NCBI GenBank assembly: GCA_029204225.1
Contig: MU832156.1
Coordinates: 1-64,000, forward strand
DNA from: Diphasiastrum complanatum
Taxonomy: Eukaryota > Streptophyta > Lycopodiopsida > Lycopodiales > Lycopodiaceae
Length of the DNA: 64,000 nucleotides
Reading direction: 5' to 3'
Below, in pieces: positions 9,806-63,042 of this stretch. Numbering within the stretch: position 1 is the stretch's first letter; every line of letters begins with the position of its first letter. The notes below the pieces were generated by a model, which was not told the DNA's origin, made no database searches, and saw only the letters and a program-made list of their open reading frames with translations. A program made the translations under genes and the position numbers.

Positions 9806-11140
9806 TGTGAAAGATTCAACTAGTTTCATCACATTTTGCAATATTTTCATATTTGGCATATTGAGGCCAAAACTTGTTTTAGACTTAGAGGTTGACTTTT
9901 CTGTTAAAAATTCACAATTCTAGCTTGACTAGTTTTGGTCATATGACTTGTAAATAGTTAGATGGTCATGATGTGGCTTGTCACACGTACCAAATAGCAT
10001 AGGATTCCATTCATAAGGATGTTCTCAAGTAGACCTAAGTGTTAGAACCTTTGGAATGAGTCCAAATTATGCTTAGATACAAGGGAGAAAAAATAGGAGC
10101 TATTTTTGGTAATTTTTGCATTGTTGAGGGATCTCCAAGATTCCAACCCTAACTTGGTAGGGATGAAAGATCCACCAAAATTAGAATTAGGGATAGGTTT
10201 AGGGCTACTCATACCTGCCCGAAACCGTGATGGATCATGTATATATAGGTGATGATATCTCACCAAAATCAATCAAGCAATTTCATGTTTTTTCTCTCAT
10301 AATGGTGCAATTGCTCTCTATGTTCATAATTGTTTGAGTACTTGTGATTACTAATGATTATAGGATTGAATGTAGGTCTGGTGTACAGTACTCAGACTGT
10401 GGGAGGCCGTACTTTCACACGTGTGAAGCCTTCTTCAAGGATTTGGGCCATTTAGTGAGGTTCAAGCATAGATTTTTGATGGATTTTGATGGTTCAACTT
10501 GTGCTAATCTTATGAAATCATAATCTATTGTTTCCCTCATCATTTCAAGTGTTTTAGGATCCTTATTTGCTGTAATTTTTACATTTTCAAAGTTCATTAG
10601 TCTAAATTTCATTTGAATAAACACTTTTTGAAAGTGTGGGAAATACAGAATGCGAGCTTGAGTAGATTCAATTTGAATAAATTGGGTACATTGAATCTAG
10701 ACCCAAAATTAGTAGGGTTAGCATTTTGGTGGGAAAGCCAAGTGGCCAAATAGGGTTTGGACCTGTTATAAAAGGATGTAACTCGTGGAGAGAGTGATCT
10801 TCTCTCTTCTCTGTTTCATTTCATGCTTATACATGGTTCTCTTGGGTTCTACTATCCATTGGTGCACTATCTTGGTGATTGCTTGCAATTGTGTGTAGAA
10901 TGATCTATATTTGTTATTTTTGGATCCACACATGTGAAATACAGTAGCTTGCTGGTTTTGTACGGACAGCAATAGTACATAATCATTTCATTCAAGTTTG
11001 ATCAAGTTCTATTAGTGTTTGCATCTGAAATTGTGTGTAGATGATGATTTTTCTACATTGGTGAGATTGGTAGTGTATTTCTCTTTCTAACCAAAGATCA
11101 TTCAAGTAGATTGGATCTTAAGGATCTAAAATCTTTCACA
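9806..11140 (+). repeat. copia-1 5' LTR
   Basis: 1,335 bp, starting TGTGAAAGA and ending TCTTTCACA directly before the primer site. It matches the 650-bp 3' LTR except for an extra 687 bp (9902-10588) flanked by TTTTC direct repeats at 9897-9901 and 10584-10588. The TTATAAAAGG at about 10764 is a likely TATA box, shared with the 3' LTR. Confidence 0.92.
9902..10588 (+). repeat. 687-bp segment present only in the copia-1 5' LTR
   Basis: Bounded by TTTTC repeats, so a deletion in the 3' LTR by recombination between short repeats explains the difference better than an insertion. I see no transposon ends or coding frame inside. Confidence 0.8.
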
Positions 11141-11152
11141 TGGTATCAGAGC
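11141..11152 (+). promoter_or_regulatory. copia-1 primer binding site, initiator tRNA-Met
   Basis: TGGTATCAGAGC follows the LTR with no spacer. It is complementary to the 3' end of plant initiator tRNA-Met and primes minus-strand DNA synthesis. Confidence 0.95.
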
Positions 11153-11740
11153 TTGTGTTTCAGGTTATGAAGGAGGAAATCAGATCTATCAATGATTTGG
11201 TGAAGATATCAAGTCTAGAGCATGCTAGAGAGGATTTTACACCAAAATCGGATTTTTTGCTTTTGTAGATTGGATCTTTTGTAGATCAAAACACTAAATA
11301 GGTCAATATACTTGTTCAATTCCGATTTTTGAATTCACATACTGGATTTGGCCGATTTTTGGATTATTGGGTCAGCCTAAGTGGTGGCTTATAGATTGCA
11401 TATCAAATTTTCAGCATTTGCATGTAAATTTGTAATAGTCAATTTTTTGTGATTTTGCCAAAACCCTAATTTTGATTGGATCTCTAGATAGTGAGGTTTC
11501 TAGACTTCATTTGAGTGTGTTTCAATCTTAGGAAGTGGCAAAAGTCATTAGATTGAGGATAGATCATAGGTTGATCAAGATTCCATGATTCTATGTGTTG
11601 ATTTGCTTGGATAAGTGCTAGAAGAGAATTTGTGAGATAGTTTCAAATCTTGGTGATTTCTTTTGAAAGCATTTGTTGTTGTTAAAAGGAGTGCTTTGTG
11701 CATTGAAGCAGATTGAAAGAGAAAATTAGGTCATTGCTAC

Positions 11741-12610
11741 ATGGCAACCTCAATTGGAGTCATGTTGGAAGCCAATGATAGACTTACCTCAAGTAACTAT
11801 TCATTGTGGGAAGTGAGGATGGAGTCACTTCTTGAGATGAATGATGTTTTGGATATTGTTGTAGGTTTGGAGGAGAGACCAGCAACACAACAAGATCAAT
11901 TGAGGTATGACAAGAGGGCCAAGAAGGCTCTACACATGATAAAGATGAATGTTACCAATGAACTTCTCAAGGAAGTTGGTAAGTGCACATCATATTTGGA
12001 AGCTTGGAATTCATTGAATAAGCTTTATGAATCCAAGTCTAATTCTAGAGTGTTGACTCTAAGAAGGCAAATCTTTTCTTGTTTGCAAAAGAATGAAGAA
12101 ATTCCAAGTACTTTTGTTTTGAGAATGAAAGCATTGAATGATGAGTTAGCTTGCATAGATGAAAGCATTAAGGAAGGAGAGCTTATTCACGTGATTCTTA
12201 ATGGCTTGTTGGATGCTCATGCTAACATTGTTCAAAGTATTTCTATTCAAAAGACTTTGCCAAGTTTGATGGATCTTCAAGAGATCTTGATCAATGAGGA
12301 ATATAGGCTTCAAGCAAGAGGTGGATCTACATTGACACTTCAAGAGGATGCTATGTTCACAAAGGGGAAATTCAAGGGCAAAACCAAAAGCAAGTGGTCT
12401 AAAGGGCAAGATCAAATGGATGCTTCTTCAAGTGGCAAAAAGAATGATAGATCAAAGCTCAAGTGCTTCTATTGTGGCATCAAAGGACACTTTGCAAGTG
12501 AGTGCTACAAGAAGAAGAGAGATCAAGGAGATAAGCAAGGTAATCTTACTCTTGATGAGAATGGTTTGGATGTTCAAGATGCAAATGATGATGCTTTTGT
12601 GATGTCTTAA
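11741..12610 (+). CDS. copia-1 Gag
   Basis: Gag forms the virus-like particle and packages element RNA. The 289-residue frame starts MATSIGVMLEAND and carries the copia UBN2-type capsid domain: SNYSLWEVRMESLLE near residue 20, KALHMIKMNVTNEL near 70, AWNSLNKLYES near 95, FVLRMKALNDEL near 130 and LNGLLDAHANIV near 155. A zinc knuckle, CFYCGIKGHFASEC (CX2CX4HX4C), lies near residue 245 for RNA binding. The frame ends at TAA (12608-12610). The same frame continues as protease four bases on, so one stop separates gag from pol where copia elements usually have a single fused ORF. That stop may be decay or a readthrough site. Confidence 0.9.
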   Translation: MATSIGVMLEANDRLTSSNYSLWEVRMESLLEMNDVLDIVVGLEERPATQQDQLRYDKRAKKALHMIKMNVTNELLKEVGKCTSYLEAWNSLNKLYESKSNSRVLTLRRQIFSCLQKNEEIPSTFVLRMKALNDELACIDESIKEGELIHVILNGLLDAHANIVQSISIQKTLPSLMDLQEILINEEYRLQARGGSTLTLQEDAMFTKGKFKGKTKSKWSKGQDQMDASSSGKKNDRSKLKCFYCGIKGHFASECYKKKRDQGDKQGNLTLDENGLDVQDANDDAFVMS

Positions 12611-12613
12611 TGT

Positions 12614-13220
12614 ATGCTTGCTAATGATGGAGATCTAGATCCTTGGTGGATTGATAGTGGAGCAAGTTCACACATGACCTTTCACAAAAAGTACTTCACT
12701 TCTTTGTTGGCATATGGAGATGACAAGAGGGTGATCTACACGACCAATGATGGTGAGTGTGCAATCAAAGGGATTGGCACAATTCCTATTTCTTTCTCTA
12801 CAAATAGGAATGTTCATTTGGAGGATGTCTTGTTTATTCCATCTATTACCAAGAATTTGCTTAGTGTGAGTCAAATGCTAAGTAAGGGCCTCAAGGTGGA
12901 GTTTGATGGAGATGCTTGTTTGATCAAAAGGAAGGATGTCTTTATTGGAAAAGATAAAAGGCAAGGGAAGTTGTTCAAACTTGATGCTTGTGTTATTGCT
13001 AACCAAGTTGGATGTGTTGCAAGAGAGCAAATTTCTATTCAAGAGGTTTGGCATAAAAGGATGGGACACCTCAACTTCAAGTCATTGGAGGTAATGGCAA
13101 GGAAGAAGGTTGTGATTAGTCTTCCAAGTTCCTTAAGTAATGACAAGCATGTTTGTGAGTCTTGTGCTTTGGCTAAGTCACATAGACTACCTTATACTAG
13201 ATCTATTCTAGATCTACAAA
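12614..13220 (+). pseudogene. copia-1 protease and integrase N-terminus
   Basis: In frame with Gag after the TAA. WWIDSGASSHMT near the start is the aspartic protease active site (DSG). LEDVLFIPSITKNLLSVSQM follows, then the integrase zinc-binding region (VWHKRMGHLNFKSLEVM … CESCALAKSHRLPY; HHCC). Near 13205-13225 the frame shifts: the expected sequence leading to the first integrase catalytic Asp continues in the frame used from about 13220 on. The stop in the old frame is at 13292-13294. Confidence 0.88.
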
Positions 13221-13221
13221 A

Positions 13222-14190
13222 CCTTTTCAGCTTGTACATTCGGATATTCATGGATTTACTACAATTAGCAATAGTGGAGCTAAGATGTATGTAACATTCA
13301 TTGATGATTTTAGTAGATTTTGTTGGATCTATCTACTAAAGAACAAGGATGAAGTGTATGATGTCTTTGTCAAGTTCAAGAATGCAAGGGAGAACCAATT
13401 TTCCACAAAGATCAAGTGTTTGAGAGGTGACAATGGTGGTGAGTACATATCTAACAAGTTCAAGGCCTTTTGTGATGAGCATGGGATCAAGAGGGAGTAT
13501 ACAACATCAAGGACCCCAAAACAAAATGGAGTGGCTGAAAGGACGAATAGGACTTTATGTGAAAGTGCTAAAGCTATGAGGTTAAGTGCCAATCTTGACA
13601 AACCGTTTTGGGATCAAGCTTTGTTGTGTGCCAATTTCTTGTGCAATAGGTGGCCGAGTGCTATTTTGGATGGAAGGACACCTTTTGAGATGCTATTCAA
13701 GAGGAGGCCGAGTGTCAACTTTCTAAGAACCTTTGGATGCACATGCTATGTCAACATTAATCTTGATGATAGGACCAAGGAGGATCCATCTTCAAGAAGA
13801 GGTATTTTTGTTGGATATAGTGAGGTGAGTAAAGCCTACAAGGTTTACATTCCTTCTACTAACAAAGTGATTGTTGGTAGAGATGTCATTTTTTATGAGA
13901 GGAACATTCCAAAGGTGTCTTCAAGCATGATTGATGGTAGAGTGGATGGATCTAACATTCTTGATGTTGATGAGAAGGATCTTACTTTGGATGGTGGTGA
14001 TAATGGACCTTCATCAAGTCAAAAGCAAAGGAGAACATCAAGAGAAAGACAAGTACCTTCAAGGCTCACATATGATCAAAAGGGTAAGCAAGTAGTTTCT
14101 GGAAATTATGTTGCTTTCCTAACCTCTTTGGATGAGCCTACAAGTGTAGATCAAGCAAGGAAAGAAGAGGAGTGGATCCAAGCAATGGTT
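13222..14190 (+). pseudogene. copia-1 integrase core
   Basis: DDE integrase inserts the cDNA into the host chromosome. Motifs: MYVTFIDDFSRFCWIYLL (first Asp region), KCLRGDNGGEYIS (second Asp), TPKQNGVAERTNRTLCESAKAM (Glu), then the GKR-like tail RTFGCTCYVNI and GIFVGYSEVSKAYKVYI. It closes with the linker EPTSVDQARKEEEWIQAM, which in normal copia elements leads straight into reverse transcriptase. The core residues are present, but the upstream frameshift separates it from the zinc domain. Confidence 0.88.
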
Positions 14191-14990
14191 GCTGTAAAAT
14201 CAAGTATTGGATCTGGAAAACAAAGTTTGTTCAATGACTTTGATGGTCAAGTTGAAGATCAAGAAGTTGATCTCAAAACGCTTCAACTAGTCAAAAGAGA
14301 AGTTGGCAATTTGGAGCTAGTCAAAAGCATCAAAGGAGAGGTAATTGGCAAAGATGTTATGGATATATTTTTACAACATATTGAAGACTCAAGTAAGGTC
14401 AAAGGAGCAGCAAGGAATTGTTGTTCAAGTTTACTTTACTTGTTCTATCTCATGTTTGAGCATTTTCATGTGGATGTGTGCAAATTGTCAAGATATGGTA
14501 AAACTAGCTACATTGGTGAGCATTGTTTTGATGTTGGATTTGTACTAGCATTCTTGGCTGGTTTTGCTGATCGAAATGAAGCTATTGGAGGTTCATTATG
14601 TCACTCATTCATGGTCAAGTCATCAAGTGATGATGGCATCTTGTGGCAAGATGAAGATGGAGGCTCATTCATGGAGTATCATGGTGGATACAAGGCAACG
14701 CAGGACAAAGGAGGAGGAGACATGCAAGCAAAAGTTGATCACTACATTTATTGGTTCTTTGCTTATTTTTCCAGAGATTTCAGAGCTGGAAGCATGGTGG
14801 AATCATTTCATTTACATTCTATTTGATTCTTCATGTTCTAGTCACATTTTGACATGTAAAATTGATGTAAGAAATAGTGAAGCATCCCGAGTGGACACTA
14901 TTCTCTATATCAATTATGGTTGTTTCTATTTTGAGCATTACATGATCATTGAAAGGAGGTCTATTCTTAGGAAGAAGATCATTCTTATGA
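14190..14990 (+). other. unrelated sequence replacing copia-1 reverse transcriptase
   Basis: Right after EEEWIQAM, where RT should start, the frame stays open for about 210 residues to TGA at 14824-14826, but no RT motif appears (no YVDD box, no LDVKTAFL). The peptide has a Lys/Glu-rich first third, then a hydrophobic Cys/Phe/Leu stretch (CCSSLLYLFYLMFEHF) and a Gly/Asp-rich part. A second frame (14564-15226) carries through to the RNase H tail. I recognise no family. It could be captured host sequence or sequence specific to this non-autonomous copia lineage. Confidence 0.6.
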
Positions 14991-15226
14991 TGGATCAAAG
15001 TTCTATTGTCAAAAACTATGCTAGGAGCAAGCATATTGAGATAAAATATCATTTTGTGAGGGAGCGAGTCATTGCAAAGGAGGTGGAGCTTCAACATGTG
15101 TCTTCAAGGGAATGTGTAGCTGATATCTTCACCAAAGCATCGGGAAAAGACTTGTTCATGAAGCATAGGACTTCACTTGGAGTATTATCAAAGTCTATGC
15201 TAAAACTAGTTGAAGAGGGAGTGTGA
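14990..15226 (+). pseudogene. copia-1 RNase H C-terminal tail
   Basis: This frame reads DQSSIVKNYARSKHIEIKYHFVRE, then a VSSRECVADIFTKA block and KHRTSLGVL. These are the conserved last 70 residues of copia RNase H (N..SKHIEIkYHfvRe … vADifTKal … LGv). The rest of RNase H and all of RT are missing upstream. It ends a few bases into the 3' LTR, as copia pol usually does. Confidence 0.88.
15209..15221 (+). promoter_or_regulatory. copia-1 polypurine tract
   Basis: A purine-rich run (GTTGAAGAGGGAG) directly precedes the 3' LTR and would prime plus-strand DNA synthesis. Confidence 0.85.
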
Positions 15227-15871
15227 AAGATTCAACTAGTTTCATCACATTTTGCAATATTTTCATCTTTGGCATATTGAGGCCAAAACTTGTTTCAGAC
15301 TTAGAGGTTGACTTTTCAAAGTTCATTAGTCTAAATTTCATTTGAATAAACACTTTTTGAAAGTGTGGGAAAGATAGAATGCGAGTTTGAGTAGATTCAA
15401 TTTGAATAATTTGGGTACATTGAATCTAGACCCAAAATTAGTAGGGTTAGCATTTTGGTGGGAAAGCCAAGTGGCCAAATAGGGTTTGGACCTGTTATAA
15501 AAGGATGTAACTCGTGGAGAGAGTGATCTTCTCTCTTCTCTATTTCATTTCATGCTTATACATGGTTCTCTTGGGTTCTACTATCCATTGGTGCACTATC
15601 TTGGTGATTGCTTGCAATTCTATGTGTAGAATGATCTATATTTGTTATTTTTGGATCCACACGTGTGAAATACAGTAGCTTGTTGGTTTTGTATGGACAA
15701 AAATAATACATAATCATTTCATTCAAGTTTGATCAAGTTCTATTAGTGTTTGCATCTGAAATTGTGTGTAGATGCTGATTTTTCTACATTGGTGAGATTG
15801 GTAGTGTATTTCTCTTTCTAACCAAAGATCATTCAAGTAGATTGGATCTTAAGGGTCTGAAATCTTTCACA
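15222..15871 (+). repeat. copia-1 3' LTR
   Basis: 650 bp with TGTGAAAGA/TCTTTCACA ends. It is nearly the same as the 5' LTR outside the 687-bp gap at TTTTC (about 15314), with scattered substitutions and a 2-bp insertion. Confidence 0.93.
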
Positions 15872-16128
15872 TTAATTTTCAAAATTTCTCTTTCAATCAG
15901 AGTTATCTTTAGCCAACGTTATCACGCTCAGCAAGCTGAAGTTATTGCTTCAAGTCATTGTACTCACTGTTGATATTTATCGGAGTGCAATTTAGTCTCA
16001 CTACTGCGTCGTTCATTTGCGCAATCTACTTGAATACTTCTGCTGCTAACTGTTGCGTTTCTGTTCCTACAAGCCTATGCTCTGAGCAACCGAGCCTCTG
16101 CTGCACTCACGGCCACCGTTTTACGACA
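15872..16128 (+). repeat. right part of the copia-3 5' LTR
   Basis: Ends GTTTTACGACA at 16128, directly before the primer site. Its left part is 9608-9805, separated by copia-1. Confidence 0.65.
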
Positions 16129-53939: not shown

Positions 53940-54742
53940 GATGAGCCTATAAGAGGAAGAGGAAGTCAGAAAAATGTTGGAGGAGTATATCAAGTTGGGA
54001 TACATCCGTCCGAGTTATTCACCTTTCGCCTCTCCTATTTTACTTGTTAAGAAAAAAGATGGTAGTTTCCGAATGTGTGTAGATTACAGGGGATTGAATA
54101 AAATCACTGTAAAGCACAGGTATCTGATGTCCAGGATTGATGATCTACTGGATGCGTTGCAAGGTGCAACCATTTTCAATAAGATAGATCTCAAAAGTGG
54201 ATACCATCAAATACAGATTCGAGATGAAACGTCCATAAGACGGCCTTCCAAACCGGTTTCGGTCATTATGAGTTTTTGGTTATGCCATTTGGGTTAACCA
54301 ATGCCCCAGCCACGTTCATGATGCTCATGAACGATGTCTTGCGAGACTATATGGGCAAATTTGTCGTCAATTTATTGACGATATATTGGTTTTTAGTAAA
54401 GCGGTTGAGGAGCATGAGGTTCATCTCAAGACCGTATTGGGCAAGTTACAAGCTTCTGTCTTGTATGCCAATGTTCAGAAGACAGAGTTGTGTAAGACTC
54501 GTGTCGACTATTTGGGTCACGTAGTGACAGCTGAGGGTATTTCGGTTGACCCAGCCAAGGTGGCTGTGGTTAAGAAGTGGCCGAGGCTTGCCGATATACG
54601 CCAATTACAGTCTTTCTTAGGCTTTTGTAAGTTCTATCGGCGGTTTGTTAGGAATTATTCCTGGATGGCTGCTCCTTTAACGGACCAGTTAAAGAAAAAC
54701 AACATTGTGGTTCGATGGGATGCTTAAGCTCAGCAACGTTTT
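53940..54742 (+). pseudogene. gypsy-A reverse transcriptase
   Basis: Starts directly with the pre-RT block RMSL, stop, [20 protein letters not shown], so most of protease and the linker are deleted. RT blocks follow: [34 protein letters not shown] (motif A Asp), [28 protein letters not shown] (motif C DD present) and [16 protein letters not shown], then LQSFLGFCKFYRRFV. Frame changes lie near 54231 and 54358, and a stop is at 54725-54727. RNase H, integrase and the rest are absent. Confidence 0.9.
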
Positions 54743-54826
54743 GAGAGCATCCCATCCGATATGAGGGAGGTCCTGGGTTCGAATCCTAGTCTGTCCATCC
54801 ATATTATGATTTATGGATTTCTAACA
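54738..54826 (+). repeat. TRIM LTR 1, 5'-truncated
   Basis: From the tRNA-like anticodon arm (AGAGCATCCCATCC) to GATTTCTAACA. It matches 55010-55091 with two substitutions. AGAGC at the junction is shared by gypsy-A and the TRIM, a 5-bp microhomology. The B box GGGTTCGAATCC is intact. Confidence 0.9.
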
Positions 54827-54838
54827 TGGTATCAGAGC
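54827..54838 (+). promoter_or_regulatory. TRIM primer binding site, unit 1
   Basis: TGGTATCAGAGC directly after the LTR, complementary to initiator tRNA-Met. Confidence 0.95.
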
Positions 54839-54940
54839 CAAGTTAGACTAACAGTTCATGGTGTCAAAGCCATGGTTAGGTGGCCCAAGTTGTGGGACAG
54901 GTGACAGCTAGGACCCAACCAAGTGTGGCTTGAGGGGGGG
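54827..54940 (+). other. TRIM internal region, unit 1
   Basis: 114 bp with no ORF. It starts with the primer site and ends TTGAGGGGGGG, a polypurine tract. A near copy of the primer site (TGGTGTCAAAGCCA versus TGGTATCAGAGCCA) lies about 30 bases downstream. Confidence 0.9.
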
Positions 54941-55091
54941 TGCTGGAATATCAATCCACACTCTAGAGAGAACTATCAAACAGGGCGGAGGGCGGATAGC
55001 TCAGTGGTAGAGCATCCCATCCGGTATGAGGGAGGTCCTGGGTTCGAATCCTAGTCTGTCCATCCATATTATGATTTATGGATTTCCAACA
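54941..55091 (+). repeat. TRIM LTR 2, complete
   Basis: 151 bp, TGCTGGAATATC to GGATTTCCAACA; its ends are inverted copies with one mismatch. It contains a tRNA-like sequence at 54990-55061. It differs from LTR 3 by a duplicated GGGCGGA, one extra base in the D arm and a few substitutions. Confidence 0.92.
54990..55061 (+). tRNA. tRNA-like cloverleaf inside TRIM LTR 2
   Basis: 72 nt. The acceptor arm GGGCGGA pairs with TCTGTCC over seven positions (two G-T). The D arm is GCTC/GAGC around AGTGGTA. The T arm is CTGGG/CCTAG around TTCGAAT. The anticodon arm TCCCA/TGAGG has one C-A mismatch, and position 33 is C, so the amino acid cannot be assigned. Pol III boxes are TAGCTCAGTGG (A, 54997-55007) and GGGTTCGAATCC (B, 55040-55051). 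It is probably not a working tRNA, but a plausible Pol III promoter. Confidence 0.75.
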
Positions 55092-55207
55092 TGGTATCAG
55101 AGCCAAGTTAGACCTAACAGTTCATGGTGTCAAAGCCATGGTTAGGTGGCCCAAGTTGTGGGACAGGTGACAGCTAGGACCCCAACCAAGAGTGGCTTGA
55201 GGGGGGG
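55092..55207 (+). other. TRIM internal region, unit 2
   Basis: 116 bp, three small differences from unit 1. It starts with the primer site TGGTATCAGAGC (55092-55103) and ends TTGAGGGGGGG. The next two bases, TG, are the start of LTR 3 before the gypsy-B insertion. Confidence 0.92.
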
Positions 55208-55209
55208 TG

Positions 55210-55567
55210 TGTTACGAGCTCATAACCAGTGCCGAACCCTAGAGAACACAGATAGGTCAGATACCACAGTCAGGGTCGTGTCCAGTGTACATGACCAACA
55301 GGGCAAGACAGTGTGAGTAGTGTGCCTCAGCACGGTCCATAGCCATGGCGGGCCTAACACAGCCTAGGGACCCTGTCAGCAGGATAGGGCCCCCAGTTGG
55401 GTCCCGACGTGCAGTCGGCCACGTCAGTGCCACGTGGCCGACACTTGGTAGTAGCATGCTACCAGTCCTCACACTGGGCTAGGAGGGGCTTACTCTATAT
55501 CAGGGAGTAGGCAAGGTTGGGTGGATCAGTTAGTGTTTGCCCTACTGTGGTGTTAGGATCAATTACA
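55210..55567 (+). repeat. gypsy-B 5' LTR
   Basis: 358 bp, TGTTACGAGC to GATCAATTACA. It includes CTCTATATCAG near 55494, a possible TATA region, that is missing from the 3' LTR. Confidence 0.95.
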
Positions 55568-55568
55568 C

Positions 55569-55580
55569 TGGTATCAGAGC
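55569..55580 (+). promoter_or_regulatory. gypsy-B primer binding site
   Basis: TGGTATCAGAGC one base after the LTR; complementary to initiator tRNA-Met. Confidence 0.95.
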
Positions 55581-56289
55581 CATCTCCATCCTAGGGAATT
55601 TAGTTTTCAGCAGTGGAGAAAGTAGCTAGATTGCTTAGAACTTCTTCAAGTTCTCAGAAAGAAATAGAGGAGGAGACTCGCTGTAGGAACAGTCTCCTAC
55701 TGAGGAAATCTTGGTGGATTTACTTGCTTGTCAGATAGAAATTAGTAAAAGTTTCTAGAGCAGGTCCAACGCTGTATTTCCAGCTTTCATCTTTGATTTT
55801 TGCCATCAGATTCGGGAATTAGAACGATATTTTGAAGAGGAAGAGTGGTGCTGATCCAGCGCTGACAGTACCCACATCTTTTCTGATTTCTAGAACCATA
55901 TTTGGTTTTAAATCAAAGTTTTTTTGGAGCAAATAGGTCGCTGTCCAGCCAGCGAGGGTAGAGAGACACCAAAATCAGAAATTGAAATACTTTTTGGGTC
56001 TCAAATCAGAAGCAAACGAGCCAGTTGGGCTGCAATCAGACCAGCGAGCTACTATCCTCAAAGAACCGAGAAATTTGGCACCATTTTGAAGCTTCAAACT
56101 GGCATTTTCCGGGACAGCAGGTCTGAAATCTTGGGGAAAAGAGCTGAAAGGGTTCCTCTTCGTAATTTCTTTGGAAGTACAGTCCTCAGAAACAGCTAAG
56201 TCATCTTTCCTTTCCCTTGTACAATTGTAAATCAGTCTTTTAGACTTTTTTCCTTCAGAAGTTAAGGTAGCTCTCTTTCAGTTCCGAAG
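55581..56289 (+). other. gypsy-B untranslated leader
   Basis: About 700 bp between primer site and gag start. It contains one AGCGCT palindrome (55858) and related CCAGCGA motifs. A 91-codon frame (55924-56199) shows no motif. Confidence 0.6.
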
Positions 56290-57811
56290 ATGACCACTCC
56301 TCAGGGACCTGATCAACCCCCGGAGAGAGGCTGAAACAGAAGCCTTGGCTTACAGAAAAGGGAAGGAACCAATGGAATTGGAAGAACAGGAACAGTTCGC
56401 CGAAGAACTCGACGAACTGGTTACCAAGGAGCAGTTTCTCCAGTTGGTAACAGAAGTGGATGAACTGAAGTTGGCATTAGCCAATTTCAAGTCCAATGTG
56501 GATGACTCGTTCGCTGAACTCAAAAACTTGATTTTGAGTTCCGCGAAAGGAAGCCTTCCCTCCACTTCTCAGTTATCCCCTTCTCCACTTCCATCAGTTT
56601 CGGGTGAGACTTTACGGTCTCACCCCAGTGTTTTTAAAGATTTAAAACCTCCTACTTTTAATGGGGAAGAGAAGGATAGAAATGCAGATATTCTACAAAC
56701 CTTCCTCAACAAATGGAAGAACATTCATGCTCTTAAACAGACCCCTGACCATTTGCAAGCTATTGAGGCCAGTCTTTCCTTAGGGCCTATGGCCTATAAG
56801 TGGTGGTTAAATCTCCAGGAGACTGGGCAGACTCCCCGGTCATGGAAAGCTTTTGAAGAGGCTTTCCTAAGAGAATTTCTACCAGAAAATGAACTGAAAG
56901 TCAAACAAGAACGTTTGTGCTTTGTGTGTATGGGCAAGGGACACACAGTCAGACAGTGTCCCAAGGGGCCTTTCACTAAAAAAGATAAGAAAGATAAAAA
57001 ACAAGTTCATCTTGTTCAGACTGTATGTTTCCCCAGTGACTCGGCAGCTTCCGAGATCAAAGTGTATCATGAAGATCATGAACACTGTTGTCAGCTGACC
57101 TCTGCAATGCTAGCGAGACCCTTCAGCTTTGGGCCGCATGACCTAGTATGTATGCATGGGAAGGTTGGTAACCAGTCAGTAAGAGTCATGGTTGATGATG
57201 GGGCAACCCATAATTTCATCAACTACACCCTGGTTAAAAAGCTTAAACTACCAGAAGTACCTAGTCAGCATAGGTACATAGTTTCATTAGCTAAGGGTGA
57301 AGATAAAAAAATATGGGAAACTATGGTAAGTAAGTTAAATCTTGGTATTCAGGGGTACCAAGATGAAATAAACTTTCAGATAATGCACCTGGATCGAACA
57401 GATATTGTTCTCGAGAGAGATTGGCTCTACAGTTTAGGACCTTCCCTCCACATAAACTATCAGGAGAACACCCTAAGCTTTCAGCATAAAGGCCGAGAGA
57501 TCCAGTTGCATGGGGAGCATGATGTTCCCAACAGTCCTATGGTCTGCAGTTCAAAGCTCTGTCAGCTAATCGAAGACGAAGACCATCAGGTATTCTTATG
57601 TGACTATCAGTTTATTCCTGAAGTTTCTATTTCCAGTTCTATTCAGCAGAAAATCAGTAGATTAGAAACTTTATTGTCTAAATTTAAAGATGTTTTTCCT
57701 GAAGATTTGCCACATGGTTTACCACCTAGCAGAGAGGTAGATCATGTAATAAACCTAGTACCAGGTACAACACCTATTTCTAAACCTCCGTATCGGGTCA
57801 GCAGAGGATGA
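56290..57811 (+). pseudogene. gypsy-B Gag and protease
   Basis: An ATG at 56290 opens MTTPQGPDQPPERG, then a one-base frame change leads to the long frame (56345-57811). That holds an acidic coiled N-terminus (EELDELVTKEQFLQL), a capsid part (LQTFLNKWKNIHAL, MAYKWWLNLQ, EEAFLREFLPENEL) and then, without the capsid C-terminus, a perfect knuckle CFVCMGKGHTVRQC. An internal deletion of gag is the likely cause. Protease follows: VMVDDGATHNFI (usual DSG/DTG is DDG) and DIVLERDWL (usual ILGMDWL). The frame stops at the RT entrance (PPYRVSRG). Confidence 0.9.
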
Positions 57812-59305
57812 AGAAATAACTAGGCAGTTAACAGACTATCTTGGGAAAGGCCAAATTCAGACCAGTAGTTCACCATGGGCCTCACCAGTCCTATTGGTGA
57901 AAAAGAAAGAGGGGTCTATGCGTCTTTGCGTAGATTACAGAGCCCTCAATAAAGTCACAATTAAGAATAAATACCCTATGCCTCGGGCAGACGAGTTGTT
58001 TGATCAACTCGACGGGGCTAAGTTTTTCAGCAAAATAGACCTCAGATCGGGATATCATCAAGTCCGTATAAAATCGGAAGATGTCTCGAAAACAGCTTTT
58101 AGGACTCGTCACGATCATTATGAGTTTAAGGTGATGCCATTTGGGCTCACAAATGCTCCAGCTACCTTTATGCCCTTGATGAACAGTGTCCTCAGACCAT
58201 ACTGGGTAAGTTTGTAGTCATATTTTTTGATGACATCCTCGTTTACAGCAAAACGAGGAAGGAGCATCTAAAACACCTCAGAAAGGTGTTTCGATTGCTC
58301 AGAAAGCATAAGCTCTATGCAAAACAATCCAAGTGTGAATTCTTCGTTGAAGAAGTAGCATATTTGGGTCACATTATCTCTTCAGATGGGATTAAGATGG
58401 ACCCAAATAAGGTTAAAGCCATACTCAGTTGGCTGAGACCTCAGAATATTTTGGAACTTCAGATCTTTCTTGGTCTGGCGGGATATTACAGACAATTTGT
58501 CAAGGAATATGCTCAGATAGCAGTTCCTATGACCAATCTCCTTAAGGGGAAGGGAAAGGAGTTCATTTGGGAGTCCGCACAGCAGGAGAGCTTTGATGCT
58601 CTCAAAACAGCCTTAGCTACAGCACCAGTTTTAAAAGTCGTCGACCCCAATCAGCCATTTGTGGTCGAAATAGATGCTAGCGACTTTGCAGTAGGTGCTG
58701 TGCTAACTCAGGGTGGACGACCAGATGCGTTCGAGAGTAAAAAACTCGAGCCAGCTCAGACTAGGTACAGTGCCTATGAAAAGGAACTCTTTTCTATAGT
58801 ACATGCCCTTAAGACTTGGAGGCATTATTTGTATGGTGCCAACTTTGAGGTCCTGACAGACCATGAGAGTCTCAGATACCTTTGCAATCAACCTGAGCTT
58901 AGAGGTCGGAGAGCTCGTTGGGCAGAGTTGATGCAAGAGTTTGACACGTCTATCAGATATAGGCGTGGAAAATTCAATACAGTAGCAGATGCCCTTAGCA
59001 GAATGCCTATGATAAATGAGCTGAGTTTTACTCAGATTCGTAATGAGTTACTCGAGTCCTTGAGAGGAAAATGCCAGCATGATGCATTCTTCTCTACTAT
59101 CTGGAACTCAGTCCAGAACAGACAGTTACAGACTCCAGAACCAGTTCCCGGGGCTGGTGCCAGTTCATCCAAGAATACGGCAGCTTCCGTTGAGGATGAT
59201 GATGAGTCCGAGTATACGTCGTCAGATGACGTTGAGGATTCTGAGCCTGTATTACCCAAGCAAACCCCAGTGGTTGAGGGTCAGTTGACTCAAGGATTCA
59301 AATGA
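57806..59305 (+). pseudogene. gypsy-B reverse transcriptase and RNase H
   Basis: RT blocks in order: [36 protein letters not shown] (Asp of motif A), [19 protein letters not shown], then after a frame change near 58205 [11 protein letters not shown] (catalytic DD) and [16 protein letters not shown]. RNase H has [15 protein letters not shown] (Asp), [15 protein letters not shown] (Glu), [13 protein letters not shown] (Asp) and [11 protein letters not shown] (Asp), so all four metal-binding positions are present. An acidic spacer ([19 protein letters not shown]) precedes a TGA at 59303-59305, after which the same frame continues into integrase. Confidence 0.93.
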
Positions 59306-60644
59306 AAACAGTATTCCATTCAGGATGAGTACTTGCTCTATAGAGATAGAGTATGTGTCCCCAATTCAGAGGATTATAGGCAGCAGGTCCTATATGAATG
59401 TCATGACAATCCTGGTGCGGGACACCCAGGCATACAGAAGACCTATGAGCTTCTTCGTAGGCAATTTTTCTGGCCCAGTATGAAAAAGGACGTCGAAATG
59501 TCTAGTAAATAAAGCAGAGCGTTTAAAGGCAGGAGGGTTGTTGCATCCCTTAGAAATACTAGCTGGCAAATGGGAGAGTATCTCCATGGATTTTATAGTG
59601 GGCCTGCCTAAAACCCAAAAGGGTAATGACGCTATATGGGTCACAGTTGACCGTCTGACCAAAATGGCTCATTTCATTCCGACCAAAACAACCGTTAGAG
59701 CTCCAGAGTTAGCGAGGTTGTTTGTAGACGGGGTATTAAAATTGTACGGTCTACCTTCCGGCATAGTCAACGACCGGAACAGTAAGTTTACTAGAAATTT
59801 TTGGAGGGCAGTATTCCATCATCTCCATACTAAACTTAATATGAGTACCACCGACCATCCACAGACGGACGGTCAAACAAAAAGGGTAAATCAAGTGCTG
59901 GAGGATATGCTTCGTGCATACGTCAGCAAGAAGCAGACTAATTGGGAGGAGTATCTCTCGATATTAGAGTTTGCTTACAACAGTACCAAACATTCAGCTA
60001 CGGGATACAGCCCATTTATGCTGATGTACGGTTTTCAGCCACGCTCACCCACAGCTATAAGGTTTAAACAAGAAAAAGTTGAAGCAGCCAGAAACTTTTT
60101 AGAGGACCTAAACCAGATGATAGAACATGCTAAGCGTAGCATTAGGCAGTCCCAGGATCGAGCCAGGCACTATGCAGATCCACACAGACGGGATGTGCAG
60201 TTCTCCACTGGTGAGAAAGTCTACTTGAGAGTCCCAGTTGACTCTAAAACCCTCAAATCAGGAGTGTGTGCTAAGTTGTCTCCAAGGTATTGTGGTCCCT
60301 TTACCATTAGTAGGAGACTAGGCGAGGTCACCTATGAACTAGAACTCCCACACAGTAGTAAGGTTTTTCCAGTCTTTCATGTAAGTCGGTTACGAAAAGC
60401 CTTAACCAGATCAGACAATCTGGTAGGGGATAGTGTTCTAGTTCTCCCATTGGATCCTCAGCAACCTCCACATGAACCAGAGGAGATTCTTGATAGTAGA
60501 GAGACGCAGACTCGTCATACTCTATACCGAGAATATCTGGTTAAGTGGAATGATCAGCCTGTTGAGAATGCCACTTGGGAAAGAGGCAGCGTCCTTCGCA
60601 AGATTTTTCCAAACTTTGTCTTAGAGGACCAAGACGGTTCTTAA
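59306..60644 (+). pseudogene. gypsy-B integrase with chromodomain-like tail
   Basis: The zinc domain keeps ECHDNPGAGHPGIQKTY but loses its two Cys: after KKDVEMSS a deletion and frame change jump to NKAERLKAGGLLHP. The core has SMDFIVGLP (first Asp) and GIVNDRNSKFT (second Asp), but the third motif reads TDGQTKRVNQ where TDGQTERVNQ is usual, so the catalytic Glu is Lys. YCGPFTISRR and HSSKVFPVFHVSRL form the GPY/F module. The tail EYLVKWNDQPVENATWE is a chromodomain that in relatives guides insertion to heterochromatin. Stop TAA at 60642. Confidence 0.93.
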
Positions 60645-60655
60645 GGGGGAGGGAG
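60641..60655 (+). promoter_or_regulatory. gypsy-B polypurine tract
   Basis: TTAAGGGGGAGGGAG ends directly at the 3' LTR and overlaps the integrase stop. Confidence 0.92.
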
Positions 60656-60966
60656 TGTTACGAGCTCGTAACCAGTGCCGAACCCTAGAGAACATAGATA
60701 GGTCAGATACCACAGTCAGGGTCGTGTCCAGTGTACATGACCAACAGGGCAAGACAGTGTGAGTAGTGTGCCCCAGCACGGTCCATAGCCATGGCGGGCC
60801 TAACACAGCCTAGGGACCCTGTCAGCAGGATAGGGCCACGTCAGTGCCACGTGGCCGACACTTGGCAGTAGCATGCTACCAGTCCTCACACTGGGCTAGG
60901 AGGGAGTAGGCAAGGTTGGGTGGATCAGTTAGTGTTTGCCCTACTGTGGTGTTAGGATCAATTACA
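60656..60966 (+). repeat. gypsy-B 3' LTR with two deletions
   Basis: 311 bp. Compared with the 5' LTR it lacks about 29 bp (near 55390-55418) and about 18 bp that include CTCTATATCAG. Four substitutions otherwise. Confidence 0.95.
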
Positions 60967-60969
60967 GGG

Positions 60970-61112
60970 TGTTGGAATATCAATCCACACTTTAGAGAGA
61001 ACTATCAAACAGGGCGGATAGCTCAGTGGTAGACATCCCATCTGGTATGAGGGAGGTCCTAGGTACAAATCCTAGTCTGTCCATCCATATTATGATTTAT
61101 GGATTTCCAACA
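60970..61112 (+). repeat. TRIM LTR 3, complete after subtracting gypsy-B
   Basis: 143 bp, TGTTGGAATATC to GGATTTCCAACA, with perfect 8-bp inverted ends TGTTGGAA/TTCCAACA. Its tRNA-like part keeps the A box, but the B box has decayed (AGGTACAAATCC) and the D arm has lost one base (TAGAC). Confidence 0.9.
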
Positions 61113-62410
61113 ATATCAAGACAAAATCAACTTTGGGCCAAATGTCCATTTTACTATTGTCGCGAACATTCACATGTTTGTTCTAGAATATGCTAGGGAG
61201 GTAGAGCAACGGTTGGAGAAGGAAGGCCAAGGCAAACTTTTTTACTTGCCAAGCCATCATACAACGATAGCTCTTTTAGGTAACAACATAGAGTATCCGA
61301 TCAAGCGTTGATCCCAATAAGAGTAGTCACTTATCACTGCACCCTCATGCTTGGCTTCTTGAAAGAATGAGACCACATGAGAATTACAGTTGACTACAAG
61401 TAGGTTTGAAAATCTTTGAGGATACCATTGTTCATTTTGCAAATTTAGCTACGAGACAACAAGTGTTCAATTGACTGAGCAAGAACCTTTATTTTGAAGC
61501 TTTACCAGTATAACACTTGGAGCTTAACTAGAGATAGTATAGAAATGTAATATCAATTCAATCTACATGCAAGTTGCTCAGTTTCTAAATTTCAAGACCC
61601 CTAGTGGTTTATTGTTGGTAAAACTAACCAACTCGTTCCATAGTCCAAGCAACTTATCAAAGTCTTGCACAGGCCAAGGTTGTTAAGGGAGATTCTAGTT
61701 GTTAAATTACATCAACTCTAACATTACGATTTAACTAATCTTGCATTCTAAATGTGTGCTATAAAGATTCATTGTATGGGGTCCTCAATCAGATCATGGA
61801 GAGTTGTCTAACTACCAATTGTGCACTTATTGGAGCTCCTTCCCCGGAAAAATCAACTTTGCCGATGGATGCCTGACCAGAAGTGAGTTGGTGTGCCTCT
61901 CCCACATGCTATAAATTCTAATATGCTTTTGTGTCCTTTTATAGTTACCCTTTTCAACAATACGATTTCAATACTTCTGGCTATGGATGAAGAAAGTGTC
62001 TCTTATCATTGTAGCCATTTGAATCCAGCATGAAGCACACATTCCACTTGTCGACATCTAAAGTTTATAGTACAATCAAGACTGGAGGGTGGCACACAAG
62101 TTTGTTGATACGAGAGGTATCAATCAGCCAAAGTACTGATTACATATGAGGAAAAATAAGCATAATACCACATGAAATTTCATAGTTATATGAAGGTGAT
62201 ATACAAAAACTTGAGAAGACTTGACCTAGAGCATCGAGGCGGAAACAGAAGCGCCAGCACGTACTGTACACAACTGGATGATAGAGCTTTAAGGAAAATG
62301 AGTGAAGCACTGATATGGCGCCTACTCAAAAATTTGTTTCAATAAAATCCAGACTACTGGTTTTAAAACGCGAGACTTGCATTCCATCACAGCCACAAAG
62401 AAACAGAAAT
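61113..62410. other. unassigned DNA
   Basis: No element end, coding motif or RNA gene recognised. A 70-codon frame at 61099-61311 (YAREVEQRLEKEGQGK) shows no family. Confidence 0.35.
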
Positions 62411-62413
62411 CTT

Positions 62414-62974
62414 ACCGAGCAAAGATGCATAATATCGAACTGCAAAACTCATAACGATCCAAATGAATATTAACGAGCGAAGATGAACGATATGGAACTG
62501 TAAAAGTCATAAAGATCCAAATGAAATATCACCGAGCAACGATGAATAATATCGAACTGCAAAACTCATAAAGAACCAATTGAGATATTACCGAGCAAAG
62601 ATGAATAATATCGAACTGCAAAATCCATATGAAATATTACCGAGAACAGACGAATAATATAGAACTGCAAAACTCATAAAGATCCAATTGAAATCTTACC
62701 GAGCAAAGATGAATAACATCGAACTGCAAAACTCATAAAGATCCAATTGAAATCTTACCGAGCAAAGATGAATAACATCGAACTGCAAAACTCATAAAGA
62801 TCCAATTAAGGTATCACCGAGCAAAGATGAATAATACAAAATCCAAATGAAACATTACCGAGCACAGATGAATAATATCGAACTGCAAAACTCCGAAACA
62901 TCCAATTGAAATCTTACCGAGCAAAGATGAATAATATGGAACTGCAAAACTCATTATGATCCAATTTGAAAGGG
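62414..62974 (-). repeat. 59-bp tandem minisatellite with splice-site-like units
   Basis: About ten units. ACCGAGC-type starts lie at 62414, 62472, 62531, 62590, 62639, 62698, 62757, 62816, 62857 and 62916, so the period is 59 with two shortened units (49 and 41). On the minus strand each full unit reads TTTTGCAG (acceptor-like), 24 nt from TTCGATATTATTC to CTTTGCTCG, then GTAAGAT (donor-like). Two neighbouring units (62698, 62757) are identical, suggesting recent expansion. Confidence 0.92.
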
Positions 62975-63042
62975 CAAAAAGAGATGCGCGCTCGAGCAAG
63001 CTCCCAGCCGAATGAAGGAAGAAGAAAGAACAAGGCCTCCAT
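62914..63042 (-). CDS. possible short ORF or first exon at the edge of the minisatellite
   Basis: On the minus strand an ATG at 63042 opens a 42-codon frame (MEALFFLLPSFGWELARARI…) that either stops at TAA (62914-62916) or is spliced at the GTAAGAT overlapping it. The TATA box is only about 20 bases upstream, so transcription may begin downstream of this ATG. No family recognised. Confidence 0.25.
   Translation of the reverse strand: MEALFFLLPSFGWELARARISFCPFKLDHNEFCSSILFIFAR

Follow-up and report, generated by a model that had tools for sequence, protein, structure and literature searches.

A TRIM with tRNA-like LTR sequence, probably of the Helenus type, in the lycophyte Diphasiastrum complanatum

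TRIMs carrying tRNA-derived sequence in their LTRs have been defined as Helenus and were grouped together with Cassandra as 'TRIMp3' (Kojima, 2024; PMC10886601). The only plant in the Helenus set of that study is Selaginella, a lycophyte, and the function of the tRNA-derived part as a Pol III promoter is not validated, as stated by Kojima, who also reports that tRNA gene counts are inflated in rust fungi (PMC10886601). The layout of the element described here, which was found in a 64,000-nucleotide stretch of the Diphasiastrum complanatum genome (contig MU832156.1, hereafter the window), is therefore already known, and the suggestion, in a previous sequence-only reading of the window, that a described family of this kind is not known is wrong.

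The locus consists of a tandem TRIM in the order LTR (5'-truncated)-interior-LTR-interior-LTR, which is split by a Gypsy element (all features are given for the + strand). The leftmost LTR (54744-54826) shares 97.6% identity with the corresponding segment of the middle one and lacks U3 and the A box, while its B box (54776-54786) and tail are retained. It is followed by interior 1 (54827-54940, 114 bp), starting with the PBS TGGTATCAGAGCC at 54827 and ending with a G7 PPT at 54934-54940, by the complete middle LTR (54941-55091, 151 bp), which exceeds the usual 144 bp and carries a 7-bp duplication, and by interior 2 (55092-55207, 116 bp) with its PBS at 55092 and a G7 PPT at 55201-55207. The third LTR (60970-61112, 143 bp), which forms the right end of the array, is 90.7% identical to the middle one. 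The LTR lengths of 143-151 bp, the interior of about 115 bp and the G7 tract given in the sequence-only reading are thus borne out, as is the primer site, since TGGTATCAGAGC directly adjoins the 3' side of an LTR at 54827 and 55092; with one mismatch at most, this motif occurs at seven places in the window, compared to 0.19 expected. The paired end motifs claimed for the LTRs (TGYTGGAA...TTCCAACA) are present on the middle and the right LTR, the leftmost one being 5'-truncated. All three LTRs share a 7-bp tail hairpin, located at 55062-55083 in the middle LTR with a TTT run at its end (55083-55085). With the Gypsy element set aside, the array has the at least three LTRs and at least two interiors that define a TA-TRIM; the 5' end of this copy, where one half of its 5-bp target-site duplication would lie, has been lost.

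The interrupting element (55210-60966, 5.76 kb) is a chromodomain Gypsy with protease, RNase H and Chromo domains, whose LTRs (55210-55567 and 60656-60966) differ by four transitions in 311 aligned bases plus two indels, and which is flanked by the 5-bp target-site duplication GGGTG (55205-55209 on the left and 60967-60971 on the right). It is a separate insertion, later than the TRIM array. The element span of 54738-61112 originally proposed does contain the array, but the inserted Gypsy had gone unmentioned, and the array proper accordingly amounts to only about 600 bp. As judged from reading the sequence from 54300 onward, the left flank of the array probably represents a part of another Gypsy pol.

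The middle LTR contains a tRNA-like unit (54990-55062) with a perfect A box TAGCTCAGTGG at 54997-55007 and a perfect B box GGTTCGAATCC at 55041-55051, which is recognized by ARAGORN and matches the Rfam tRNA family RF00005 with 49.8 bits (E 1.1e-7). The nearly full pairing of its arms noticed earlier is in fact complete, with 7/7 acceptor, 4/4 D and 5/5 T pairs; none of 20,000 mononucleotide shuffles showed all 16 pairs. Its anticodon loop is expanded and was left unaligned by Infernal. The corresponding unit of the right LTR (61012-61083), likewise found by ARAGORN, is decayed (RF00005, 38.5 bits, E 1.4e-4), with an intact A box and a B box mutated to GGTACAAATCC. The covariance model thus agrees with the tRNA-like nature of the LTRs, whereas the statement that each LTR carries both boxes holds for the middle LTR but not for the leftmost one, which is without an A box, or the rightmost one with its mutated B box. 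ARAGORN called tRNA-Thr (GGT) twice in the window. No 5S rRNA was detected, the Rfam scan of the whole window at gathering thresholds yielding tRNA matches only, and the only addition in a lax scan of 54700-61200 was a single plastid family match, which lay below threshold.

A view on the whole genome shows that the tRNA-like part is a family trait. Exact 21-base LTR starts occur 1,338 times (reversed-pattern control, 0), and an intact A box (TAGCTYAGTGG) follows in place in 997 of them (control, 0), which refutes the idea that a tRNA-like sequence was inserted by chance at this single locus, the outcome that had been named as speaking against a family trait. Junctions of B box, LTR end and PBS, counted for families 1 and 2 (see below) together, were found 659 times genome-wide (control, 0), and the family-1 PBS continuation stands behind a different LTR end at 22 places. 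From 1475 first-look candidates for family 1, to which the window copy belongs, 40 were scored, 30 were fetched and 25 were scanned with Rfam, all 25 of which gave at least one tRNA match per element. The 17 full copies measure 403-411 bp, a typical element of about 404 bp being composed of 144-116-144 bp (LTR-interior-LTR), and 40 of 46 LTRs are 144 bp long. The LTR pairs diverge by 0-2.8%. Complete copies with 5-bp duplications exist as envisaged: among 14 distinct ones, nine have duplications matching at 5/5 positions, three at 4/5 and two at 0-1/5; perfect duplications also flank two solo LTRs and an array with five LTRs. This array, at locus L025, has four interiors and the duplication TAATA and is a TA-TRIM like that of the window. 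The exact A box is present in 41 and the exact B box in 42 of the 46 LTRs, which were drawn from the loci nearest to the query and are almost identical to one another. Box conservation as a sign of selection is unsupported, as the tRNA-like part varies by 1.10% vs 0.57% for the upstream part, and LTRs so alike, taken preferentially from the nearest loci, cannot reveal selection on the boxes.

The element is abundant, widely dispersed and non-coding. Two reading frames of the array, used as queries in peptide searches, returned zero candidates, pattern searches of viral contigs gave no matches, and a random 200-kb genome sample, which bounds the density only, contained neither an element copy nor a tRNA. 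A plasmid search returned a single short and unremarkable tRNA-like match.

A second family has a different LTR, in which the tRNA-like part is about 77% identical to that of family 1, while the best match between the LTRs outside this part, U3 included, is not significant (E 0.60). Rfam tRNA matches of up to 57.3 bits were obtained in all 16 LTRs from eight fetched loci, and five of eight copies have 5/5 duplications. Both boxes and 15-16 of the 16 arm pairs are kept across the two families. The motif ACACTCTAG is visible by eye in the LTRs of both families, despite the lack of a significant match.

These data strongly support the view that the element is a TRIM whose LTRs bear tRNA-type sequence, and it is probably a Helenus-type TRIM, present here as a three-LTR tandem later split by Gypsy and driven by Pol III. 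Transcription by Pol III from the tRNA-like LTR part is plausible. TFIIIC and TFIIIB would recruit Pol III to start in the 5' LTR, at the CAA about six bases upstream of the tRNA-like part, and the transcript would read through the interior into the 3' LTR. The primer of reverse transcription would then be a tRNA with a 3' end complementary to TGGTATCAGAGC, presumably initiator tRNA-Met, with Gag, reverse transcriptase and integrase provided by a putative autonomous LTR retrotransposon, and recombination between LTRs may give rise to the tandem arrays. A CAA is found at -6 in 43 of 46 family-1 LTRs, at -13 in the middle LTR of the window, and in only six of the nine family-2 LTRs with a locatable tRNA-like start (of 15 LTRs). 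According to the parts drawn on here of a study on plant tRNA genes, these start at CAA triplets within -10 and end at a T4 terminator, but only 36-45% of angiosperm tRNA genes have a CAA within 10 bases (PMC11700998), so the triplet lends weak support to a Pol III start. TTTT is missing from all 46 family-1 LTRs and from the two window interiors, the first TTTT downstream of the last B box being located in the flank. This absence was rejected as a sign of adaptation to Pol III, because it is not significant given the base composition: when LTR2 and interior 2 were shuffled together 2,000 times, 1,508 of the resulting sequences were TTTT-free. Moreover, the model leaves the 3' end of the RNA unexplained for family 1, which is without a canonical terminator, and 14 of 15 family-2 LTRs contain a TTTT downstream of their tRNA-like part, so that much Pol III transcription should stop before the interior.

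The same terminator data fit an ordinary TRIM transcribed by Pol II, in which a SINE or tRNA was captured as a passenger, now seen as the tRNA-like part, and has been copied along because the copies are young: family-1 LTRs carry no T4, that of family 2 precedes the interior, the copies are too alike to reveal selection, and conservation is no higher in the tRNA-like part than in the rest. A passenger, however, would be expected to decay independently, and it is disfavoured by a tRNA-like part that is the recognizable LTR segment common to two otherwise dissimilar families and has retained the boxes and nearly all arm pairs in both, even if it may have been exchanged recently between them. We consider this explanation unlikely. 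It would be highly improbable that the LTRs are working tRNA-Thr genes dispersed by the element, even though the tRNA-Thr (GGT) calls in the window are joined by nine of ten reported family-1 units at five loci and the Rfam scores of family 2 reach those cited above. The anticodon loop of the better window copy is expanded, both family-2 units at locus L042 are called 'tRNA-???' and one family-1 unit is called Ile, which makes a functional tRNA gene unlikely, and the family-1 unit lies within an LTR without a T4 terminator behind it.

Taken as a Helenus-type TRIM, the element probably adds a second lycophyte order to the plant range of Helenus, which was reported from a single Selaginella family (PMC10886601), and, as far as the searches of this analysis reach, the novelty appears to lie in this order and in the presence of two abundant families in one genome. 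These offer a plant system for asking if an LTR with a tRNA-like part works as a Pol III promoter, the point left open by Kojima. Since the LTRs pass the Rfam tRNA threshold at every scanned family-1 locus, tRNA gene counts may be inflated, and annotators should be warned that the numbers given for such genomes may be too high. It may tentatively be proposed, with rather little confidence, that lycophytes host an old Pol III-driven LTR lineage, in which a durable tRNA-type promoter module persisted while the remaining LTR was replaced; the two families and that of Selaginella would then be branches predating the split of Lycopodiales and Selaginellales, or would derive from repeated capture of the same tRNA or SINE head.

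SINEs rely on the machinery of non-LTR retrotransposons, and the tRNA-derived ones have neither LTRs nor a PBS, whereas the present element has LTR, PBS, PPT and 5-bp duplications. Common to both are the tRNA-type A and B boxes and a probable Pol III promoter (PMC10886601 and general knowledge). Cassandra, in the parts of its description drawn on here, is similarly non-coding, has LTRs that bear a promoter sequence of Pol III type, shares the PBS TGGTATCAGAGC and forms tandem arrays (PMC7215508), but its LTR has 5S rRNA sequence, while the Rfam matches of the window are to tRNA only. TRIM/SMART elements and tandemly arrayed TRIMs share the small size, the order LTR-interior-LTR, and L3I2 and longer arrays; tRNA sequence in the LTR is unmentioned in the portion of the respective report considered here, 'tRNA' being absent from its main text (PMC4717578). 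The closest counterpart, Helenus-1_SMo from Selaginella moellendorffii, also is a TRIM with a PBS, a PPT and a tRNA-derived LTR part in which the A and B boxes are conserved (PMC10886601). It comes from a host of another order than the present one (Lycopodiales), and in length its LTR of 120 bp and interior of 85 bp differ from the 144 and 116 bp found here (PMC10886601). Plant and fungal Helenus elements generate 5-bp duplications, as here, and several families per genome as well as tandem arrays, both seen in D. complanatum, are reported for Helenus of other hosts (PMC10886601). The element therefore shows every Helenus feature that could be tested, namely the TRIM structure, the boxes, PBS and PPT, and the 5-bp target-site duplications.

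The interval 54738..61112, described in the sequence-only reading as a TRIM-like LTR element, harbours a small element (family 1) with three LTRs and two interiors, in order a 5'-truncated LTR (54744-54826), a first interior (54827-54940), the middle LTR (54941-55091), a second interior (55092-55207) and the right LTR (60970-61112). A chromodomain Gypsy element with its own LTRs (55210-60966), which is inserted in the TRIM array before the right LTR, had gone unmentioned in that reading. The Gypsy element is flanked on either side by a GGGTG duplication, contains protease, RNase H and Chromo domains, and shows 4 transitions in 311 aligned bases plus 2 indels between its LTRs. Its integrase-chromodomain ORF is 98% identical to a protein of Diphasiastrum complanatum (P0010) across 57% of the length and 87-90% identical to four further proteins of the species (P0013, P0015-P0017) over 42-59%; nine longer proteins, one of them from the fern Ceratopteris, gave higher scores at 57-63% identity. 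On this single protein search, the host is probably D. complanatum (Lycopodiales) or a close relative. Without the Gypsy element, the array is LTR-interior-LTR-interior-LTR, an arrangement known as "L3I2" among tandemly arrayed TRIMs and reported to be common in plants (PMC4717578). On the left side, within 54300-54744, a Gypsy pol fragment adjoins the truncated LTR at TTTTGAGAGCATC with an apparent microhomology to the LTR of about 8 bases, suggesting illegitimate recombination or a template switch. Elsewhere in the window, a Copia element (about 10584-15872) with ORFs of copia-type gag and integrase is bounded by LTR-like repeats of 96-98% identity (about 10584-11140 and 15313-15872) and carries, at 11141 after an LTR end TTTCACA, the PBS motif also seen in the TRIM; 62407-63014 is a tandem repeat whose period is mostly 59 bp.

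The tRNA-like units proposed for these LTRs were recovered by the Rfam tRNA model at 54990-55062 in the middle LTR (49.8 bits, E 1.1e-7) and at 61012-61083 in the right LTR (38.5 bits, E 1.4e-4). ARAGORN calls the identical two units, and the Rfam scan of the entire window yielded no other match at gathering score. The almost full pairing claimed for the middle LTR proved to be complete in the acceptor (7/7), D (4/4) and T arms (5/5); all 16 pairs formed together in 0 of 20,000 mononucleotide shuffles. A functional tRNA at 54990-55062 is unlikely, because the anticodon loop is expanded in the Rfam model alignment. Of the A and B boxes expected inside each LTR, both are perfect in the middle one (TAGCTCAGTGG and GGTTCGAATCC), but the truncated left LTR no longer includes an A box, and in the right LTR the B box is mutated.

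When the genome assembly (1.74 Gb, 5,176 contigs) was searched with the middle LTR, 1,475 first-look candidates emerged; scoring of 40 of them yielded 41 matches, counting the window itself. The 30 loci cut from the genome represent the best matches and are biased toward young, query-like copies; four of them (L022, L028, L033, L049) repeat the insertion site of another, as judged by eye from identical flanks. Complete copies have the form LTR-interior-LTR and measure 403-411 bp; the loci also include two solo LTRs (L023, L050), a longer array in which four interiors alternate with five LTRs (L025), and copies that are incomplete or rearranged. As sought for this family, 5-bp target duplications are present: of the 17 copies in which neither LTR is incomplete (14 of them distinct), 12 (9 of the distinct ones) have duplications matching at 5/5 positions, three at 4/5 and two at 0 or 1 of 5, and they are likewise 5/5 at L023, L025 and L050. 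Within a copy, the two LTRs show 0-4 differences over 144 positions, and the fetched insertions are therefore fairly young. Four insertion sites occur at two assembly places each (L021/L022, on contig C638 and at C12:55610390; L027/L028; L032/L033; L048/L049), which suggests haplotigs or segmental duplications. At L041, TRIM copies are inverted head-to-head. The solo LTR at L023:1501-1653 is divergent (153 bp, 88% identity to the third LTR of the window), has a GTACC duplication, scores 52.4 bits with the tRNA model, and possibly represents a subfamily.

The alternative that the tRNA-like part occurs at this locus only is contradicted by the genome-wide counts. The exact first 21 LTR bases occur 1,338 times (control 0), and among the first 100 of these places the commonest spacing of close-neighbour LTR starts is 260 bp (19 of 34), equalling one LTR plus one interior. 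The A-box sequence TAGCTYAGTGG follows at the correct distance in 997 of the 1,338 cases (control 0); as a rough estimate, about a few per cent mutation in its 11 bases together with truncation would suffice for the remainder. The combination of B box, LTR end and PBS was matched 659 times (control 0), and 51 listed occurrences were assigned by eye to family 1 (40) and a second family (11). These counts show the tRNA-like LTR part to be a family trait.

This second TRIM (family 2) adjoins a family-1 copy at L042:506-863. Its LTR of 153 bp (TGTTAGAAAG...TTTTCACA) is unlike that of family 1; it has a tRNA-like unit of the family-1 type and a PBS and PPT of its own. Most copies have an interior of about 73 bp, against 58 bp in L042. 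Searching the genome with this element produced 660 first-look candidates, with 73 matches; without the four shortest, the remaining 69 form 30 close neighbour pairs, 28 of them spaced 73-74 bp. Target duplications are 5/5 in five of eight fetched copies (L051-L058) and 3, 0 and 0 in the others. All 16 LTRs of these copies exceed the tRNA threshold (29.7-57.3 bits), and the 15 with intact start contain the A box in 12 and the B box in 13 cases in the form sought. Outside the tRNA-like part, pairwise comparison of the LTRs of both families gave no significant similarity (best E 0.60), and the interiors share short matches only, the best between the family-2 PBS region and an inner part of the family-1 interior (E 0.002), followed by PBS/PBS (E 0.015) and PPT/PPT (E 0.11). 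Identity between the tRNA-like parts is about 77%, with compatible stem changes in the last acceptor pair (A-U vs G-C) and a T-arm pair (G-U vs A-U); one acceptor pair is A-A in both family-2 units compared.

Judging from these sequence features, the tRNA-like part probably serves as a Pol III promoter, although the fetched copies are uninformative on selection for the two boxes. Plant tRNA genes are described to start at CAA triplets up to 10 bases upstream and to stop at runs of at least four T (PMC11700998). CAA is found at -6 in 43 of 46 family-1 LTRs; it is shifted to -13 by a 7-bp duplication in the middle LTR of the window, and the right LTR shows a TATA-like AATAT at -36. In family 2, the tRNA-like start was located in nine of 15 LTRs, with CAA just upstream in six. 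TTTT is absent from all 46 family-1 LTRs and both window interiors, which would allow Pol III to continue from the 5' LTR across the interior and on into the 3' LTR. At the given base composition the lack of TTTT is not improbable, 1,508 of 2,000 shuffles also being without it. In family 2, 14 of the 15 LTRs have TTTT close to their end, ahead of the interior; this would yield a short LTR RNA, and a full-length RNA only if the terminator were leaky. The primer for reverse transcription would be a tRNA (initiator Met) that pairs with TGGTATCAGAGC, and the proteins would come from a putative autonomous element. At 22 genome places, the family-1 PBS and downstream sequence stand behind a different LTR end, e.g. 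at G000:C1:4394068 and at G000:C2:7993749, where a family-1 LTR start follows about 640 bp downstream. These places are leads to an autonomous element or a third family, and such sites may represent a longer relative, a chimera or the autonomous partner.

The sequence-only reading knew of no described family of this layout, but this kind of element was described in 2024 as Helenus, i.e. TRIMs whose LTR includes tRNA-derived sequence and that have a PBS and a PPT, those of plants and fungi showing 5-bp duplications, and the name "TRIMp3" was proposed for Pol III-type TRIMs (Kojima, 2024; PMC10886601). The sole plant in the Helenus list of that paper is Selaginella moellendorffii, with an LTR of 120 bp and an interior of 85 bp; a 2026 meeting report cites Helenus again, apparently without new hosts (PMC12859917). 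In the open-licence literature, mostly at title and abstract level, TRIMs bearing tRNA sequence did not turn up for Lycopodiaceae. Family 1 is a new member of the Helenus kind, showing every Helenus feature tested: a short non-coding LTR structure, tRNA-derived LTR sequence with A and B boxes, a PBS and PPT, and 5-bp duplications. Helenus-type elements are therefore probably now represented in a second lycophyte order.
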